Shown one piece after another: positions 7,431 through 48,018 of a stretch of 64,000 nucleotides of DNA. Source of the DNA: Tenericutes bacterium MZ-XQ (GTDB lineage Bacteria > Bacillota_I > Bacilli_A > Acholeplasmatales > Acholeplasmataceae); contig CP017950.1 in the NCBI GenBank assembly GCA_002838205.1, positions 1,246,858-1,310,857 on the forward strand, in the 5' to 3' direction. A model generated the notes under the pieces. The model was not told the DNA's origin and did no database searches. It was given only the letters and a program-made list of their open reading frames with translations. How positions within the stretch are numbered: the first letter of the stretch is position 1; the number at the start of each line of letters is the position of its first letter. The translations under genes were made by a program, and so were the position numbers.

Positions 7431-8480
7431 TTAAGATTTTTTGTATTTATCATAGTATTTTTCTACGGTTTTATATAATTCCTCTTTATTTTCAAGCATC
7501 TTTCTAATAGCTTCCAAACCTGATACATTCTTCTTGGAGTCTAGCCATAGTTTTAAGTAGCCATTTCTGCCATATTTCTCATTAATATGCTCTATTGCTC
7601 GATTTATATGCTGATCTTTTGATATCGATGGATAGTGACTTAATCCAAATTGAACTGTTCTTTTCACGATAACTTCGGGAATAATATCACGGTCTGCCTC
7701 CGCAATTATCTTTCCATAAATACTTCTAGGTGGGTCATCATGCGAAGCACGGTGATCCTCTATAGCTTCTTTCATGATTTTTATATCATCTTTATTAAAA
7801 TAATTCTGAATCGTTTGATCTTCTTCTAAATACTTCGCTCCTGTGATGTGATGTTGATCTCTTCCAAATAAATTACCTATATCATGATAAAAAGCAATGA
7901 CATAGACTAAGTCCAATTTCAGGTCCTCAAACTGTTTTGCCAACTCAAGTGACGTTTTTAGAACATGGTGTACATGATCATATTGATGTGCTTGATCAAA
8001 CGCTTGATATTTGACTAAAACATGATTATATAAGTAGTCAATTAATTTTATCGGCATTTGATACTCAATGGTATTTTTAAACTGCTGATAGATATCAACA
8101 AAAGCATCTTTTGTATTTTGATGTGTTAATAAGTTTAAGACATCATCTTCATTGACCCAAATGGCATGCTTTATTTCAGTGTCCTGTTTTAAGAGTTGAT
8201 TGGATAGCGGTATACCTAGATATAAAACAACTTCTTTATCAATTTCATTTCTAATATAATAACGCATTGAAGTTTTTATGTTATCATATAAAAAAGATTT
8301 AATATTGGTTTCTTCATATGTCTCTCTAACTGCAGTTTCAATATCTTGCTCATTTTTTTCTTGGTGTCCTTTCGGGAATCCAACAAAGTCACCATGAAGT
8401 TGATGGATTAATAAAAACTGTCTCTTTCCATCTTTATATCGATATAATATTGAACCACAAGACTTTTCTTTTCTCATCAT
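7431..8480 (-). CDS. Nudix hydrolase - HD domain fusion
   Basis: I place the start at the paired Met codons 8480/8477 (MMRKEKSCGS), because AGGTGAT lies just upstream and the family begins there; the open frame extends to 8576 without support. The N-terminal domain (about residues 5-130) has a full Nudix box, GFPKGHQEKNEQDIETAV then RETYEETNI, of the diadenosine-tetraphosphatase type. After a linker, an HD phosphohydrolase domain (about 165-290) shows His of HHVLK and the pair in FYHDIGN. Nudix enzymes cleave nucleoside diphosphates linked to another moiety; HD domains cleave phosphomonoesters or diesters. The fusion suggests two steps on one nucleotide substrate, but which one cannot be told. 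Confidence 0.85.
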   Translation of the reverse strand: MMRKEKSCGSILYRYKDGKRQFLLIHQLHGDFVGFPKGHQEKNEQDIETAVRETYEETNIKSFLYDNIKTSMRYYIRNEIDKEVVLYLGIPLSNQLLKQDTEIKHAIWVNEDDVLNLLTHQNTKDAFVDIYQQFKNTIEYQMPIKLIDYLYNHVLVKYQAFDQAHQYDHVHHVLKTSLELAKQFEDLKLDLVYVIAFYHDIGNLFGRDQHHITGAKYLEEDQTIQNYFNKDDIKIMKEAIEDHRASHDDPPRSIYGKIIAEADRDIIPEVIVKRTVQFGLSHYPSISKDQHINRAIEHINEKYGRNGYLKLWLDSKKNVSGLEAIRKMLENKEELYKTVEKYYDKYKKS

Positions 8481-40570: not shown

Positions 40571-40888
40571 TTATCCAATATGCTCATATACGACAACTTC
40601 TGATCTCATATATTGAGCTTGAATTCTTAAATGATAATTTGGCATCTCTTTAGGAATCTCAACACTCCATCCAACAAAGATATACCCATCTTTTTCTGGA
40701 GCATCAGGAATTTCTAGATCTATCAAATTTGTACCTGGTTCAAAATAGTCTCTAAAGACCACATCTTGATCATGTGTCACAAATTCTAACATCTTCAGTT
40801 CCACTGAGTTTGCCTGTAGTTTTGATACCTCTAAGGTGAACATCATTGCTGAAAGTATGACTGCTAGTATGACGATAATTTTTTTCAT
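40571..40888 (-). CDS. Secreted protein with Listeria-Bacteroides-type repeat
   Basis: A 105-residue protein with an N-terminal signal segment (IIVILAVILSAMMFTL) and no lipobox. The C-terminal half has the pattern PDAPEKDGYIFVGWSVEI then a run ending in QAQY, which matches one Listeria-Bacteroides (Flg_new, internalin B-repeat) module of small beta-grasp fold, found on many Gram-positive surface proteins. A stand-alone single repeat is small for this family. The promoter has four seven-base repeats 11 bp apart, suggesting control by the nearby response regulator. Confidence 0.7.
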   Translation of the reverse strand: MKKIIVILAVILSAMMFTLEVSKLQANSVELKMLEFVTHDQDVVFRDYFEPGTNLIDLEIPDAPEKDGYIFVGWSVEIPKEMPNYHLRIQAQYMRSEVVVYEHIG

Positions 40889-40927: not shown

Positions 40928-40981
40928 ATTATAAAGATTATTTATTAACTTATTATGATGATTTCCTTAAGAATTTATTAA
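40928..40981 (-). promoter_or_regulatory. Promoter with 11-bp-phased repeats (105-aa gene)
   Basis: The -10 TATAAT is at 40933-40928 on the minus strand. Read on the plus strand, TTATTAA, TTATGAT, TCCTTAA and TTATTAA begin at 40942, 40953, 40964 and 40975, exactly 11 bp apart. The last three are at the same distances from the -10 as the perfect repeats of the neighbouring promoter. No good -35 is seen. The outermost repeat overlaps the stop codon of the 161-aa gene. Confidence 0.5.
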
Positions 40982-41463
40982 ATCGTATATTCTCTATGCA
41001 TTAAGTGAAAAAGGTGCTCTTTGAGGGCTTCAAGCTTAATATCGGTATGATACATCATGGGTATTTGATAATTAATATCAATATGTACTTCATGATCTAA
41101 AACCAGTTGATCAAGCTTTTTCTTTGCATTTATAACATCCAAATAGTCGATGCTTAAACAGTGCATAACATCATCTTTGATGTAGCATAAAGCATGGGTT
41201 TTTATATATCCTTTTTTCTTATTAAAATTTTTAATCCTGATCAACATATCAAATGTTTCTTTCATATTTCGTTCAAAGAAGTAATTGAGTTTTCGATGGT
41301 CATACTTATGTAGATAGTTAGTGACATCATCATAACTCAATACATAATAACGATTCGATAAACCTTCCTTGTTTTGGAAATACTCAGATAAATGGAGTTT
41401 CACCATTTTTGTATCTTGATGCACTTGAAAGTAAAATGACCAGGGGACTTCAAAATGTGTCAT
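40978..41463 (-). CDS. Hypothetical protein, 161 aa
   Basis: A 161-residue soluble protein without signal peptide or membrane segment, rich in Lys, His, Asp and Tyr (YLHKYDHRKLNYFFERNMKE, HIDINYQIPMMYHTDIKLEA). No family is recognised and it is not a histidine kinase. It lies between the response regulator and the 105-aa secreted protein. Its promoter has three perfect TTCTTAA repeats 11 bp apart upstream of the -10, so it is the clearest candidate target of that regulator. Confidence 0.65.
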   Translation of the reverse strand: MTHFEVPWSFYFQVHQDTKMVKLHLSEYFQNKEGLSNRYYVLSYDDVTNYLHKYDHRKLNYFFERNMKETFDMLIRIKNFNKKKGYIKTHALCYIKDDVMHCLSIDYLDVINAKKKLDQLVLDHEVHIDINYQIPMMYHTDIKLEALKEHLFHLMHREYTI

Positions 41464-41483
41464 AGAACCACCCCTTCTTTTCT

Positions 41484-41537
41484 ATTATAGTCATTTTGTA
41501 TGTCCCGTTTCTTAATCAATTCTTAAAAATTTCTTAA
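41484..41537 (-). promoter_or_regulatory. Promoter with three perfect 11-bp-phased repeats (161-aa gene)
   Basis: The -10 TATAAT is at 41489-41484 on the minus strand. On the plus strand TTCTTAA occurs at 41509, 41520 and 41531, exact copies 11 bp apart, one helical turn. The first repeat covers the -35 position, which otherwise lacks a consensus. This is the layout of OmpR/PhoB-type activator sites. Confidence 0.7.
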
Positions 41538-41545
41538 ATAAAAAA

Positions 41546-41565
41546 ATAGAGCATGGTAGCCCTAT
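41546..41565 (-). terminator. Terminator of the response regulator gene
   Basis: ATAGAGC-ATGGTA-GCCCTAT with one G-T pair and a T run on the minus strand. The frame-shifted stop TAG of the regulator (41562-41564) is within the stem. Confidence 0.8.
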
Positions 41566-42259
41566 TTAATATCTATCTGACCCAATTTATAACCAAAGCC
41601 CCACATTGTAACAACAACTTTAGGGTTTGATGGATCTTCTTCAATTTTTTTCTAAGTCTTCTAATATGCACATTAATGACATTATCATTAAAATAATATT
41701 CTTCATTCCAAATTTTACGATACATTTCTTGTTTTGAAAATGTTTGATCAGGATGTGTTAATAATAACTTCAATATCTCAAACTCTTTTAATGTTAATTC
41801 TAAAGGCTCACCGGCTTTTTTCACTTGGAAGGTATTTAAGTTCACTGTAATATCATTAAACTCAAATAAAGCTTGCTTAGGCTTTTCTTCATGATGTTTA
41901 CTTCTTCTTAATAGTGCTTTAACTCTAGCGAGTAATTCAAGCATAGAAAAAGGTTTAACGACATAGTCATCAGCGCCTAAACCTAGATTGATTGCTTTTT
42001 CAACATCAGTATCTTTAGTTGAAATAATAATGACCGGTGTATCTCCTTTTGAGCGAATATGCTTTAAGACATCTTCACCGCCAACCTTCGGTAACATAAG
42101 ATCAAGTAATACAACATCATATTGCTCTTTATCAAATTGATTAATCGCGTCTTCACCATTAAAAACAGACTTCACATCGTAAAGTTCTGACTTTAGTTTT
42201 TGCTCAATGCTTTTGCTGATAATGACGTTGTCTTCGATTAAAAGTACTTTTTGTGGCAT
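41562..42259 (-). CDS. OmpR-family response regulator, -1 frameshift at C-terminus
   Basis: The receiver domain (residues 1-120) has the acidic pair in LIEDN, the phosphoacceptor Asp in VVLLDLMLP, and the conserved Thr/Lys sites (IIISTKD, YVVKPFS). The winged helix begins near residue 130 and has NVINVHIRRLRKK. The zero-frame then ends at 41573 with an unrelated 20-residue tail (228 aa total). A -1 shift at seven A (minus strand, 41651-41645) restores IEEDPSNPKVVVTMWGFGYK, the normal family ending, and a stop at 41562 beside the terminator (232 aa). The run is a slippery heptamer A AAA AAA. Programmed slippage, a real mutation or a sequence error are all possible. No histidine kinase is adjacent. 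Confidence 0.85.
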
Positions 42260-42339
42260 ATCATAACCTCTTTTACTTGTTCGTATATATAGATTATATC
42301 ACACTATAAAGCAATTATTAACATAAATAAAAAAAATGA

Positions 42340-42373
42340 GCCCTAGTGATTGGGGGGGAGTTATCACTAGGGC
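42340..42373 (-). terminator. Large hairpin at the end of the glucan locus
   Basis: GCCCTAGTGAT (42340-42350) pairs perfectly with ATCACTAGGGC (42363-42373); on the minus strand it is followed by TCA and eight T. The 12-base loop contains seven consecutive G (C on the minus strand), which is unusual. Confidence 0.75.
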
Positions 42374-42409
42374 ATTATTGATAATTTTCATGATAAGCAA
42401 GTTTTACAA

Positions 42410-42428
42410 AAAAGGTAAAACTCACCTT
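42410..42428 (-). terminator. Second small terminator after secreted GH16 gene
   Basis: AAGGT and ACCTT arms with a seven-base loop, followed by T on the minus strand. It precedes the larger hairpin, so the locus ends with two terminators in tandem. Confidence 0.55.
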
Positions 42429-42517
42429 AACTACCATGAAACTACCAATACATTCATATTATACACAACTTTGAAATAAATTGCACGTAAAATCATCATT
42501 TTTTTTGTAAATTTTTT

Positions 42518-43639
42518 TTATGAGTATGTAAAGGATAATACTTGGCTAATATCTGAAGCTCTTCCAAGGAAATCAATGGCTTGAACTTGGATTTGATAAC
42601 TTTGACCTGCTTCTAATCGATCAAATATATATTGATTTAAGTTCGCATAGTCATAAAGTTCACCATCGACATAGATTGCATATTTTTCTACACCATAGTC
42701 ATCTTCAGCTGCATCCCAAAAGATTGCGTTTCTCAGTGGAGATATTGATAAATCTTCTATATTAGAAGGTGCTTCTTTGTCGATTGTCGCATAATCATAC
42801 TTATAGACCCTTACATAATCAATTTCAAATGTCTGTGGGAAAATTGAGTTATCAACTGCTCCACCTAAGTTTCCACCAATTGCTAAATTTAATATCAAGT
42901 AGAAATCTTGATCAAATGGAAATGCTTCATGATATGGTACATCTTGATTAAAAGCTGCAGTATATCTGAATGTAGCAAATGCTTCTCCATTCATATACGT
43001 GATGATCTCACCTGGATTCCAAATGATTTCATAAAGGTTGAACTCAGTTTCAGCCGTTGGCGCATCAATATCAAAACCGATTTGTGTCCCTAGTTGATGA
43101 TTAAATTTCGCAGTATGTATAGTAGAAAATAAATTCCCCGGATCTCTACCTACATATTCCATAATATCAATTTCACCACTTCTTGGCCAACCACCATAAA
43201 CACTCATCGTCGGCATCATCCATATTGCAGGCCATGTGCCAGCTCCTGAAGGAAGTTTAGCTCTTACAGAAATACGTCCGTATCTAAAATCACCTTTATA
43301 CTTAGTTGTAAGACGACTTGAAGTGTAATCTTTTCCTAAATACGATTCTTGTCTACCAGTAATGACTAATTTACCATCAACGATTTCAGCATTTTCTCTT
43401 GTATAATATTGAAGCTCATTGTTACCCCCACCGTAACCATTCACTTCAAAATTCCATTTATCTTCATCGATGGTATCACCTTCAAACTCATCAGCCCAAA
43501 TGCAAACCCATCCACCTTCTAAAGTAGCTTCATTACAGTCTTCTACTGGTACTAATGGATCTACATCAATTGGATCTTCTGATGGTTCACAACCAACGAT
43601 AACAAACATAAACAATATTAATATCAATAACTTTTTCAT
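42518..43639 (-). CDS. GH16 endo-beta-1,3-glucanase lipoprotein
   Basis: A 373-residue surface enzyme. I start at ATG 43639 (MKKLLILILFMFVIVGC), which has AGGAGA; the frame is open to 43714. The lipobox IVGC (Cys17) predicts a lipid anchor. The GH16 domain (about 40-280) has SGEIDIMEYVG, with the two catalytic Glu and the Asp between them, and the laminarinase-type GTWPAIWMMP. A C-terminal fibronectin III-like domain (about 285-373) follows. It should cut laminarin-type beta-1,3-glucan at the cell surface into oligosaccharides for the adjacent ABC importers. It is the last gene of the locus, four bases after a permease gene. Confidence 0.9.
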   Translation of the reverse strand: MKKLLILILFMFVIVGCEPSEDPIDVDPLVPVEDCNEATLEGGWVCIWADEFEGDTIDEDKWNFEVNGYGGGNNELQYYTRENAEIVDGKLVITGRQESYLGKDYTSSRLTTKYKGDFRYGRISVRAKLPSGAGTWPAIWMMPTMSVYGGWPRSGEIDIMEYVGRDPGNLFSTIHTAKFNHQLGTQIGFDIDAPTAETEFNLYEIIWNPGEIITYMNGEAFATFRYTAAFNQDVPYHEAFPFDQDFYLILNLAIGGNLGGAVDNSIFPQTFEIDYVRVYKYDYATIDKEAPSNIEDLSISPLRNAIFWDAAEDDYGVEKYAIYVDGELYDYANLNQYIFDRLEAGQSYQIQVQAIDFLGRASDISQVLSFTYS

Positions 43640-43643
43640 AATT

Positions 43644-44576
43644 TTATTCTCCTGTGATACCAGTTCTATCGATACTTTCAACAAAGTATCTTTGTGCAAT
43701 AAAGTATAACACAAGAAGTGGTAATATGGTTAACATATTGCCCGCAAGCATAATCGCTTCATTAAGTTCTGATCCTGCTGATCCAGGAGGGAATAATGTT
43801 TCATAACTTGATCTAAATGCTTGTAACTTAAGTGGTAATGTAATTCTACCACCGACATATAAAGATGTTATAAAGGTTTCATTCCAATACCATACAAAAC
43901 TAAATAAGAAAACAATCAAAAACGATGGAATTGCAAGCGGAACTGCAATTCTCGTAAATATTCTAAACTGTGATGCACCATCAACTTCTGCAGATTCCAT
44001 CAACACACCAGGAATGGTTTTAAAGAACTGATAGAAAATTAAAATGTAGATGGCGGCATTAACACCTTGCCCAAATATCGCTGGGAAAATCATAGCATTT
44101 TGTGTACTCATTAACCCAAGATTATTAAAGATAACTAGGTTTGCAACCATCGTTACTTGTGAAGGTAAGATAAATGTTGCAAGCATAAGTACAAATAATA
44201 AGTTTTTAAGTGGGAATCTAAATTTCGCAAACCCATATCCAATAATCGCAGATGATATGGTTACAGATATCGATACTTTTAAAACATAAGATGTTGTAGA
44301 AACTATAGATCCTGGTAATTCTAGCACTTGTAATGCTCGTCCATAGTTTTCAAACTGCAATGCAGTAGGTATCCATTTAACCCCTGGATTAATCAAATCA
44401 TCAACAGTCATAAAACTATTCACTGTCATAAATAAAACTGGATATAAATAAATATAACTAAAGCTGATAAGTAATGTGTAAATCACAAACTTATACACAA
44501 AACCATCCACAAAATTCATACCAAACAAGAATTTTCTTGCTTTTATTTTAAAATGCTTAGTATCAAATTTTTTCAT
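43644..44576 (-). CDS. Sugar ABC permease, MalG type (pair 2)
   Basis: A 310-residue inner-membrane permease of a carbohydrate ABC importer, six hydrophobic segments. I start at ATG 44576 (MKKFDTKHFKIKARKF), which shares one base with the stop of the partner permease and has GGAG upstream; the frame is open to 44657. The cytoplasmic EAA loop, which docks the ATPase, is ESAEVDGASQFRIFTRIAVP. With the partner at 44576-45631 it forms the second permease pair in the locus. Confidence 0.88.
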   Translation of the reverse strand: MKKFDTKHFKIKARKFLFGMNFVDGFVYKFVIYTLLISFSYIYLYPVLFMTVNSFMTVDDLINPGVKWIPTALQFENYGRALQVLELPGSIVSTTSYVLKVSISVTISSAIIGYGFAKFRFPLKNLLFVLMLATFILPSQVTMVANLVIFNNLGLMSTQNAMIFPAIFGQGVNAAIYILIFYQFFKTIPGVLMESAEVDGASQFRIFTRIAVPLAIPSFLIVFLFSFVWYWNETFITSLYVGGRITLPLKLQAFRSSYETLFPPGSAGSELNEAIMLAGNMLTILPLLVLYFIAQRYFVESIDRTGITGE

Positions 44577-45631
44577 TAGTTTTTCTCCTTTCTTCTTGCT
44601 GAAAGGATTAACACGAATATACCCATAATAATCACCATAAGTAAGAAATAAATCCAAGCAATCGTAGCAGCATATCCATATCCAAACCAGAATGTTGAGT
44701 CAGGTGCTCCAACGAGCATATGACTTCTTGCAAGATCTAATATACCTCCTGATTCTACAAATAAGCTCATAGAAACAACGATATATATCACACTCACACT
44801 AATTAAAGGACTAATTGAAGGTAAGGTAATCTTCCAAAAACGATCCCATGGTGAAGCACCATCAATTGCTGCTGCTTCATAAATCGAACCATCAATTTTT
44901 TGTAACCCAGCTAAGAAAATCAAAATCGGAATACCTGCATACCATAAGATGAGTAACATAGATGTCAAAATTGCTTCAACTGGGCTTGCAATCCAAGGTC
45001 CTAAATTTTCTGAAATAAAGACAATTAAACTACTGTCCTCTAGTGAAGGAATTGAAGTTGCATCTTGATTATTTAATTCCGCAATAACTGGCCCAGTTGA
45101 GATAACAACAGGTAAGAAGAATATGGTTCTCCAAAAACCTTTGAGCTTGATTGGGTTATTAATCAGTACAGCAATTAAAATAGAAAATACAATAATTAGA
45201 GGTACAGAAATCAACATCTTCCCAATGTATGTTGCAAATAATGGTAATAGTGTTTGACTTCTAAAGACGTTTAAATAATTTGTAAACCCTATGAATGTCG
45301 TTTCAACACCAGACTCTAAACTATAATATGCTTCAGTAAAGCTTAAGTAGAGAGAATAAAACATAGGATATAAAGTGAATATTGTAAAACCAATAATCCA
45401 TATTAAAATGAATAAATATCCATAAAATGCTTCACGTCTTCTTCTTGTAATATCAATTTTTATAAATCCAAATAAGGTTAATTTTAAACCTTCTCTTCTT
45501 ATAATGAAATTATGAGATAATGCATATTTGAATTTTTGAACATATTTTGCTAGTTTACTATCATAAAATGCTACAACTGAAGCCCATCCTTTAGCAAGTG
45601 GTGCCATGATTTTACTTAATACTTTTTTCAT
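44576..45631 (-). CDS. Sugar ABC permease, MalF/UgpA type (pair 2)
   Basis: A 351-residue permease with six core hydrophobic segments and an N-terminal extension of about 70 basic residues before the first segment (YGYLFILIWIIGFTIF). The EAA loop is YEAAAIDGASPWDRFWKITL. It partners the MalG-type permease that follows. Its start overlaps the DUF5696 gene stop by four bases, tying this permease pair to the DUF5696 protein. Confidence 0.88.
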   Translation of the reverse strand: MKKVLSKIMAPLAKGWASVVAFYDSKLAKYVQKFKYALSHNFIIRREGLKLTLFGFIKIDITRRRREAFYGYLFILIWIIGFTIFTLYPMFYSLYLSFTEAYYSLESGVETTFIGFTNYLNVFRSQTLLPLFATYIGKMLISVPLIIVFSILIAVLINNPIKLKGFWRTIFFLPVVISTGPVIAELNNQDATSIPSLEDSSLIVFISENLGPWIASPVEAILTSMLLILWYAGIPILIFLAGLQKIDGSIYEAAAIDGASPWDRFWKITLPSISPLISVSVIYIVVSMSLFVESGGILDLARSHMLVGAPDSTFWFGYGYAATIAWIYFLLMVIIMGIFVLILSARRKEKN

Positions 45632-48018
45632 GATACCACCACCTTATAATCTCTCGACTCTACGGTGTGACCATCCAAAGTAACATCTTCATAATTGTAG
45701 TTGACATAGATAATAACGCCATTAGAATAAGTAACTTTTACAAATCCTGTTGAGAGCACTTCACGATTTTCAATGCTTGCACCAAGCACATGATTTAATG
45801 CGTCACTTAAATAGCCATAAGTTTCTAAAATTTCATCTTCATAATCACTTCTTGTTGTAGTGTAGAAAACAGATGCATTCGTATAACGCATTTCATATGT
45901 ATCTTCTTCTGTCAAAATATAACTTGGATTAATACCGAAATCAACCATCATGAGTAATCGATCTTCACCCATCGCATTGAAATTCAAAAATGGAGTGTAG
46001 TAAGATATGCTACCTTTTAATATCAACGGTAAAATTGGTACTAAATCTGTATAATAATCGTATTGCGCATTGGTAATTGGCATATCCACATAACCACTAA
46101 TCTTATCGAAGAAATAAGCATTAGGATTGCTCAATAAGACTTGATCGTATAGATCGAGAATGTCATGATAGTAATCAAGTGATATTGATCGTTCATAATT
46201 ACCACCATCATAATAACTAAATAGTGTATATCCAATAGCTGATAGATAGAGGCCTGATACACCAAGGTCTTGGAAGAATGCTTGATCATCACGTGCAAAC
46301 TTATAACTTTGTTCTGGATATAGGAAATAAACTTCAGTCACTTGTGCATTAAGACTTCTAAAGTTTCTTTCCATTTTTAATCTTGATAAATCTCTAGCAA
46401 CATCTCGATTGTAAGATAAACGATCGGTAAGTTCAGAGCCGTTTACATAATCATTGTCCAAATAGATGGTATTTTGATCAGATTTTATGGTTTCAAACAG
46501 TTCCTTATAATCATTTTTATTTGCAATTTGTCTATCATAAGGTGCTTGGAACACATACCCATCTTTACTCCAACCGAAAAGTGTGATTTGTTGATTTGTA
46601 AGATTATTTGACTTAAATGATTGATAACTATTATATACATCTTCAACTGTTGTCATCTTAATGTTTGTTGATCCAATAAATGATTTTTCTTGATCACCCA
46701 TAATGTAACCTAAGTGAATAGGAATTTGATCATTTAAGTCTTTTTCCTTGTCACTTAAGACACCCGTGTTTATCAATTTATCACGATAGATTTTTGCCAT
46801 ACCAACGTAAGAAGCATCATCATCTGATAAGAAGTAATAATTGACTTTATAATCATTTGTTGTAAAATCATCGCTGATGGTATCATTACCATCACCAGCT
46901 TTGTTAATAATGTATCGATACATTTGTCTAACATTATATCTTGTACCAATTCGGTGATATCTTGTGTTTGTTCCCCAAAATTGGCTTAAGAGTGTCGTAA
47001 CCTCAGCACCCTCTTCAACTTCAGCTAGATATCCATTTGCACCATGTTCATGAACCATTCCAAAAATAGGTACTGATAAACTAGGAACAGTATTTTGTCT
47101 ATAGCCATAGTCATCTCCATAAAATGGTGATTGGAATGATGTGTTATAGGCTTTATTAGTTCTTATCAAAGCTCCTACACCATCTGGAATCATCATGTAT
47201 CCAGGGAAATAGTCTTCTCTCGTAGCTCCTAAATAAGGGAACACTTGAATAGATAATAATCGGTAAATTTCATCATATTCTTCGATGAGATCGACTGGAA
47301 TATGCACACTTAAGGTACCATCAATCAAACTGATATTAACTTCAAATTTGATGTCAATAGTCTTTAAATCTACGGCAACAGTGAACCCTGTTGTTGTTTT
47401 GTTTTTAATTGATGTAGACACTCTTCTTGTTGCATAACTTCCTGCTTCAAGTTGATATACACCAAGCGGATCAGTTTGTCCCTCTTTGATCGAACCATCA
47501 GTTACATATGAAGCTTCTGCAAGCGAGTAGAGTGACTCTGTGGAAATCGTTGATGCTGATATGTTTTGACTTCTGACATAACTTACCCATAAGCCTGAAT
47601 TCATTAGATTTCTGTTTTGAGTGTTGTTCTCTCTATTTCCACTGATCCCTTGAAATTCAGGTCTTGATGACCACAAATAATCTGTAATTTTATTATAGAT
47701 CATCATTGAAAATGAATCTTTCTCAAAATAAACTGTAAGCTCAGGAGTATCAAACATTACTTCAAAACCTAAGCTCAAAATATCAGCAGATGAAAATTCG
47801 AGTTGGAAGTCATCATGATAAACATCCAAAATTGCTTGATCAACTTGATCTTTTTGCGTATATCGAGAAGATTCCAAAAAGATTTGATTGATATAGTTAA
47901 AATTAGTTTCAACTTCAGTTTCTTGAGATACTTGAGGTGATTGATAACCATAAGATATCACAAGAACACTCATACTAAATATGAGAACAATAAGTACATA
48001 TTTCATATATTTAGCCAC
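45628..48018 (-). CDS. DUF5696-type extracellular protein
   Basis: A 796-residue protein started at GTG 48018, with one N-terminal membrane segment (YVLIVLIFSMSVLVISYGY) and a large extracellular part. From memory it matches the DUF5696 family, which in Paenibacillus-like Firmicutes is found with sugar ABC transporters and YIP1-domain proteins. The central part (PGYMMIPDGVGALIRTNKA, then alternating beta/alpha to about residue 700) suggests a glycosidase-like barrel, but no catalytic motif can be named. It overlaps the NHL-YIP1 gene by eight bases and the permease gene by four. A role as glycan-processing or glycan-guiding part of the importer is inference. Confidence 0.72.
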   Translation of the reverse strand: MAKYMKYVLIVLIFSMSVLVISYGYQSPQVSQETEVETNFNYINQIFLESSRYTQKDQVDQAILDVYHDDFQLEFSSADILSLGFEVMFDTPELTVYFEKDSFSMMIYNKITDYLWSSRPEFQGISGNRENNTQNRNLMNSGLWVSYVRSQNISASTISTESLYSLAEASYVTDGSIKEGQTDPLGVYQLEAGSYATRRVSTSIKNKTTTGFTVAVDLKTIDIKFEVNISLIDGTLSVHIPVDLIEEYDEIYRLLSIQVFPYLGATREDYFPGYMMIPDGVGALIRTNKAYNTSFQSPFYGDDYGYRQNTVPSLSVPIFGMVHEHGANGYLAEVEEGAEVTTLLSQFWGTNTRYHRIGTRYNVRQMYRYIINKAGDGNDTISDDFTTNDYKVNYYFLSDDDASYVGMAKIYRDKLINTGVLSDKEKDLNDQIPIHLGYIMGDQEKSFIGSTNIKMTTVEDVYNSYQSFKSNNLTNQQITLFGWSKDGYVFQAPYDRQIANKNDYKELFETIKSDQNTIYLDNDYVNGSELTDRLSYNRDVARDLSRLKMERNFRSLNAQVTEVYFLYPEQSYKFARDDQAFFQDLGVSGLYLSAIGYTLFSYYDGGNYERSISLDYYHDILDLYDQVLLSNPNAYFFDKISGYVDMPITNAQYDYYTDLVPILPLILKGSISYYTPFLNFNAMGEDRLLMMVDFGINPSYILTEEDTYEMRYTNASVFYTTTRSDYEDEILETYGYLSDALNHVLGASIENREVLSTGFVKVTYSNGVIIYVNYNYEDVTLDGHTVESRDYKVVVS

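Follow-up and report, generated by a model that had tools for sequence, protein, structure and literature searches.

Phased 11-bp repeat arrays are probable operators of an OmpR/PhoB-type response regulator in Acholeplasmataceae

Introduction

Two neighbouring genes on a 64,000-nucleotide stretch of the genome of Tenericutes bacterium MZ-XQ (the window, to which positions refer unless a genome is named) are preceded by short direct repeats spaced 11 bp apart. This raises the question whether the repeats are operators and, if so, which regulator binds them and which genes it controls. The analyses described here make it probable that an OmpR/PhoB-type response regulator uses the arrays as operators. 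The orphan encoded just upstream is the most likely candidate and would act as an activator of these two promoters and of an extended set of genes.

Results

Phased repeats at two neighbouring promoters

The first gene encodes a 161-aa protein (40978-41463, minus strand). Upstream of it the plus strand contains three exact copies of TTCTTAA (41509-41515, 41520-41526 and 41531-41537), which read TTAAGAA on the coding minus strand and constitute units 1 to 3 of an array with an 11-bp period (41509-41537). The first-pass annotation had these copies starting 25, 36 and 47 bases from the TATAAT -10 box of the gene (41484-41489, minus strand; located by sequence and promoter scan, without a -35 box), and re-reading of the sequence showed these coordinates to be correct. 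A weak fourth unit, GACATA (41499-41504, minus strand), is placed in register at -15 from the -10 box and is GACAYW in 5/5 species of the genus. On the minus strand the promoter reads TTAAGAAATTT-TTAAGAATTGA-TTAAGAAACGG-GACATACAAAATGAC-TATAAT.

The exact TTCTTAA triple occurs once in the complete genome of 2,157,199 bases (2.157 Mb), and its reversed control gave no match. When periods from 7 to 17 were tried, period 11 alone gave a high three-unit score for this promoter (19.6 vs at most 7.5). The chance of a three-unit score of at least 19.5 was 5e-6 (first-order Markov, 189,000 simulated upstream regions); the unit model had been trained on the two promoters themselves and on homologous ones.

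The second gene encodes a 105-aa protein (40571-40888, minus strand) and has its TATAAT -10 box at 40928-40933 (minus strand; sequence and alignment). It is preceded by a four-unit 11-bp array (40943-40981, minus strand) consisting of TTAATA (40976-40981), TTAAGG (40965-40970), ATCATA (40954-40959), which is of the TCAT type, and TTAATA (40943-40948); the minus strand reads TTAATAAATTC-TTAAGGAAATC-ATCATAATAAG-TTAATAAATAATCTT-TATAAT. Period 11 was again the best among periods 7 to 17 (15.5 vs at most 11.4). The four-unit score of this promoter is 20.6, and scores of at least 20.5 had a chance of about 2e-5 in the Markov simulation, which used the unit model trained as above. Both promoters had been described as lacking a normal -35, and a sigma-70 scan requiring a -35 indeed picked up neither of them. 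Sigma-70 scanning did find the promoter of the nearby regulator gene discussed below (TTAATA-17-TATAAT, 10/12, with TG), at which no array was found.

Conservation of the arrays

Gapless alignment on the -10 box showed that the register of the array (-48/-37/-26/-15) is kept in 19/21 promoters of 161-aa genes and 18/18 promoters of 105-aa genes. That is, 37 of the 39 homologous Acholeplasmataceae promoters have four 11-bp-phased KTAAKA units located 48, 37, 26 and 15 bp upstream of the -10 box and have no -35 box; in the two exceptions (L014 and L017) the array is apparently displaced by one base. Units 3 and 4 are degenerate in some of the homologous promoters. The pooled unit is T/G-T-A-A-G/T-A, and unit 3 is often (A/G)TCA(C/T)(A/T), i.e. 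RTCAYW. Three-unit scores were highest at period 11 with a unit model trained on the promoters of the 161-aa and 105-aa genes, which are referred to below as the cassette promoters.

The repeats at the 105-aa gene, which the first-pass annotation suspected of being weakened by chance matches in AT-rich DNA, are real: their conservation in 18 species answers that doubt. Conservation of unit 1 of this array is in part coding conservation, because the unit overlaps the TAA stop codon of the 161-aa gene. The array of the 161-aa promoter, in turn, begins immediately past the T-tract of the terminator of the regulator gene (41544-41567, minus strand). At three loci (L005, L012 and L013) the array is retained even though the regulator gene is not adjacent, being 10 kb away in G024 and about 5 kb away in G027 and G028. 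The array is therefore no by-product of this terminator.

Loose IUPAC scans for two or three units gave uninformative numbers near background genome-wide (174 vs 126 control matches in one scan, 133 vs 95 in another). Such slight enrichment, together with the stop codon in unit 1 of the 105-aa array, is what would be seen if the repeats had arisen by chance in AT-rich intergenic DNA, or if they owed their conservation to the flanking terminator and stop codon. We regard this as highly improbable in view of the Markov simulations, the concentration of conservation in the phased units across 18-21 species, the arrays kept without adjacent regulator gene and terminator in G024, G027 and G028, and the emptiness of the control genomes described next.

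Specificity was assessed with a profile of 55 positions built from cassette promoters. In each of 8 genomes the two cassette promoters were the top two matches (25.6-35.3 bits), a rank that is partly built in because the training set contains them, and the next match anywhere reached at most 20.5 bits. Twelve other genomes of the family, which have no match to the 161-aa protein and two of which (G076 and G077) carry a more distant regulator, gave at most 20.6 bits; these low scores elsewhere are not built in. The third-best matches, located near a dnaA-like gene (L122) or within genes (L126, L132-L135), were considered to be due to chance. The scan thus revealed no further site as strong as the two cassette promoters, and therefore the small regulon proposed by the first-pass annotation holds.

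Resemblance to known operators

In the pho box of PhoB, tandem motifs have the layout that is typical of the family. Regulators of the OmpR/PhoB type bind tandem 7-bp motifs, repeated in direct orientation near the -10 box with exactly 4 bp between them (PMC4832192), and the earlier assignment of the 11-bp direct repeats to this layout is in agreement with it. The arrays combine 11-bp direct repeats with a fixed helical position relative to the -10 box, in replacement of the -35. Like the sites of Mycobacterium tuberculosis PhoP (PMC4832192), they consist of more than two 11-bp tandem units by the -10 box. They differ from known OmpR/PhoB operators in their unit (KTAAKA / RTCAYW), in that the regulator is below curated cut-offs, and in that the Pho locus is separate. 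The PhoP boxes of Bacillus subtilis are repeats of the TTAACA type. The arrays resemble these in that AT-rich hexamers are repeated directly, 5 bp apart, ahead of the -10 box, but the target genes are others and the pst locus here has no KTAAKA-type array.

The neighbouring response regulator

The OmpR-type regulator reported to be encoded next door is present (41562-42259, minus strand; open frame 41573-42259, 228 aa), with both PF00072 and PF00486 above cut-off. It consists of a receiver domain and a Trans_reg_C winged helix, which is full-length in relatives and is cut here at profile position 61/77 by a frameshift. No histidine kinase gene was found among the genes neighbouring the regulator gene. 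The regulator scored below every curated cut-off among the families listed (PhoB, YycF, MtrA, VanR and others).

In this assembly the frameshift, which the first-pass annotation missed, lies at an A7 run and puts the wing of the regulator out of frame; the last 29 residues of a relative's protein match positions 41651-41565 in another frame (97%). In PhoP, the wing contacts the minor groove (PMC4832192). The regulator gene is the only real split among 47 genes compared with the corresponding region of the relative, and the regulator is intact in relatives. The sequence A AAA AAA T at the A7 run (about 41643-41651) doubles as a slippery site for -1 frameshifting, by which the conserved frame would be reached. 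A sequencing error, a true mutation and frameshifting at the A7 run are all compatible with these observations. A second OmpR-type regulator gene of the same genome (L029; G000:C1, about 537,600) is also split; here the frameshift falls within the receiver domain and does not coincide with a homopolymer.

Orthologs of the regulator (at least 62% identity) are present in 23/88 genomes of the family, an extra match (G045:C18) being a 43% paralog, and homologs of the 161-aa protein in 21/88 genomes belonging to two genera. The two genes occur together in 20/88 genomes, and most of the others have neither. Three genomes have the regulator without a detected 161-aa gene: in G030 the contig ends just downstream of the array, which is still visible; in G077 a remote PAS-like homolog missed by the 161-aa search lies directly behind the regulator gene (hhalign 98%); the third is G076. 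The sole genome with the 161-aa gene alone is G043, where the gene sits on a 3.6-kb contig. Regulator identity is 68-86% where that of the 161-aa protein is 23-59%. Tenericutes bacterium MO-XQ, with 84% identity in the 161-aa protein, is the closest named relative among the loci found, and the second cassette-bearing genus, g10, includes Peloplasma aerotolerans.

Another regulator could be the binder because the genome has a total of seven OmpR-type effector domains. Moreover, the 11-bp architecture is reused upstream of a pstS-like gene, where TTAC occurs three times (TTTACA-N5-TTTACT-N5-CTTACT). Nevertheless, we consider binding of the arrays by a different OmpR-type regulator, for instance the phosphate regulator PhoP, unlikely: the pstS repeats are unlike KTAAKA, a scan of the pst locus yielded no array of cassette strength, and such arrays are absent from the scanned genomes without the neighbouring regulator. 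The pstS-like TTAC repeats themselves (L247, upstream of the minus-strand gene with its 5' side at 7612; G000 near 1.7156 Mb) are probably the Pho box of the organism. Identity of the cassette regulator with PhoP, or with the Pho regulon in general, was rejected, as Pst-like, PhoU-like, regulator and kinase genes (identified by sequence reading) lie together separately at 1.71 Mb, and the intact ortholog scored 177.5 bits vs the cut-off of 296.2 bits of TIGR02154 (PhoB).

OmpR-type regulators can also repress. The array units overlap the -35 region, and a regulator covering this region could block the polymerase. That the sites are real but repressive seems quite unlikely to us: both promoters have a good -10 box and no recognisable -35, as activator-dependent promoters would have, and the offset from the -10 box is constant across species. 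We favour activation by the neighbouring orphan regulator. Its protomers, under the control of a putative kinase and signal, would bind cooperatively to one face of the helix in head-to-tail order, each occupying an 11-bp unit, and those nearest the promoter would touch RNA polymerase and so substitute for a -35, as in the model for PhoB/PhoP. This contact would activate the gene of the PAS-fold protein and that of the small exported protein.

The proteins encoded by the cassette and its neighbourhood

The 161-aa protein matched no Pfam family, PAS included, at E 0.001. An AlphaFold2 model of it (pLDDT 82.7) has its strands and helices arranged in PAS-like order, and the best Foldseek matches of this model were PAS-domain proteins (probability 0.99-1.00), with a query TM-score of only 0.36-0.45. 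The protein is thus predicted to have a PAS fold. A relationship between this protein and the hybrid kinase encoded near the surface-protein operon described below was considered and rejected, as no homology was found. At its N-terminus the 105-aa protein carries a hydrophobic segment, and an ortholog of it gave a weak match to the Listeria-Bacteroides repeat (Flg_new; E 0.0014), under the curated cut-off. Upstream of the cassette (42518-48018, minus strand) there are a glycoside hydrolase family 16 gene, two permease-like genes and a gene for a DUF5696 protein; the glycoside hydrolase gene adjoins the regulator gene, and this arrangement is kept in both genera.

A small RNA linked to the regulator gene

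A small RNA of two hairpins, with the apical loop CCCCCCC and a terminator of its own, is encoded immediately upstream of the regulator gene (42327-42455, minus strand). It is roughly 130 nt long, has its own -10 box near 42458-42463 and consists of a long hairpin and a terminator hairpin; the latter has a loop of 5-7 C and shows two-sided changes at 7/11 pairs. Matches to a model of this RNA lie beside the regulator gene in 21 genomes of the family, including G024, G027, G028, G076 and G077; in the first three of these the small RNA stays with the regulator gene where the regulator and PAS genes are apart. In g10, second copies are present before an esterase-like gene. The RNA had no match in Rfam, and possibly represents a new RNA family that might bind Shine-Dalgarno sequences or act as an attenuator. 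Pairing of the C-rich loop with the leader of the PAS gene was rejected as a function, since it is strong in some species but unspecific (-10.6 kcal/mol for matched vs -10.4 for swapped pairs).

A possible wider regulon

Further sites were searched for with a pattern of two units, 18 bases and an extended -10 box, and with the profile. In 4/5 species of the genus a four-unit array precedes a putative surface-protein operon, one base further from the extended -10 box (TGATAGAAT). Trained on the cassette promoters alone, a model gave these upstream regions four-unit scores of 17.0-20.4, and regions outside the cassette and the candidate targets at most 8.1 (177 regions in all). Scores of at least 17 were reached by 8.5e-5 of simulated regions, which we estimate at ~0.2 per genome assuming about 2000 genes. 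Among the arrays of the four species the unit bases are 80-90% identical, and the spacers 44-56% identical in five more distant pairs and 83% in the closest pair.

The operon downstream encodes three proteins with N-terminal segments of the TYAW/TFAW type, and in the relative analysed with Pfam it is immediately preceded by a GGDEF-EAL gene. The three-protein operon (L166, L168, L170 and L172) is conserved and without Pfam match; its products may form a surface fibre or coat in a mollicute.

Arrays of two to three units also precede GGDEF genes. These are PAS-GGDEF genes in G000, G023 and G025, the array in G000 being 22 bases from the -10 box instead of 21; in G022 and G024 the array precedes a GGDEF gene at the corresponding place behind nagB-like genes. 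In g10 an array is present before the gene of a 306-309-aa protein, which is a GGDEF protein by Pfam in G026 and similar to it by sequence in G031 and G040.

In single genomes the extended sites are not above noise (at most 19 bits where listed). Because they were chosen after the scan and are individually within noise, it is their conservation before orthologous genes that supports weaker additional members of the regulon. This conservation suggests that the surface-protein operon and the diguanylate cyclase genes may form, together with the cassette, a c-di-GMP/surface regulon. The weaker arrays, 1-2 bp further from an extended -10 box, would then probably add these genes to those activated by the regulator.

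Discussion

Judged from the sequences, a lone response regulator probably controls a sensor-like protein, surface proteins and cyclic-di-GMP enzymes through the arrays. A comparable case is SgmT/DigR of Myxococcus xanthus, in which an orphan DNA-binding response regulator is connected with secreted/matrix proteins and c-di-GMP (PMC3509222). As in that system, the genome studied here also encodes, at 643 kb and 1.53 Mb, hybrid kinases with no OmpR-type regulator gene next to them; it differs in that the link to c-di-GMP is through predicted target genes only, no kinase partner was identified and the lineage is unrelated.

With weaker arrays before surface and diguanylate cyclase genes, the module would make both c-di-GMP synthesis and the cell surface responsive to a signal. 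It is tempting, though doubtful, to go further and view the C-loop small RNA, the orphan regulator and the stand-alone PAS protein as a self-contained cassette of wall-less bacteria, whose four-unit operators might drive the PAS partner, surface proteins and diguanylate cyclases towards a c-di-GMP-linked surface state.

To our knowledge, little is known about the transcription factors and second messengers of cell-wall-less mollicutes. The locus offers a defined candidate operator, a probable regulator and a short list of targets, which are kept in about 20 Acholeplasmataceae genomes and can be tested in vitro, and it points to c-di-GMP enzymes and surface proteins that may be under one regulator in cells without a wall.
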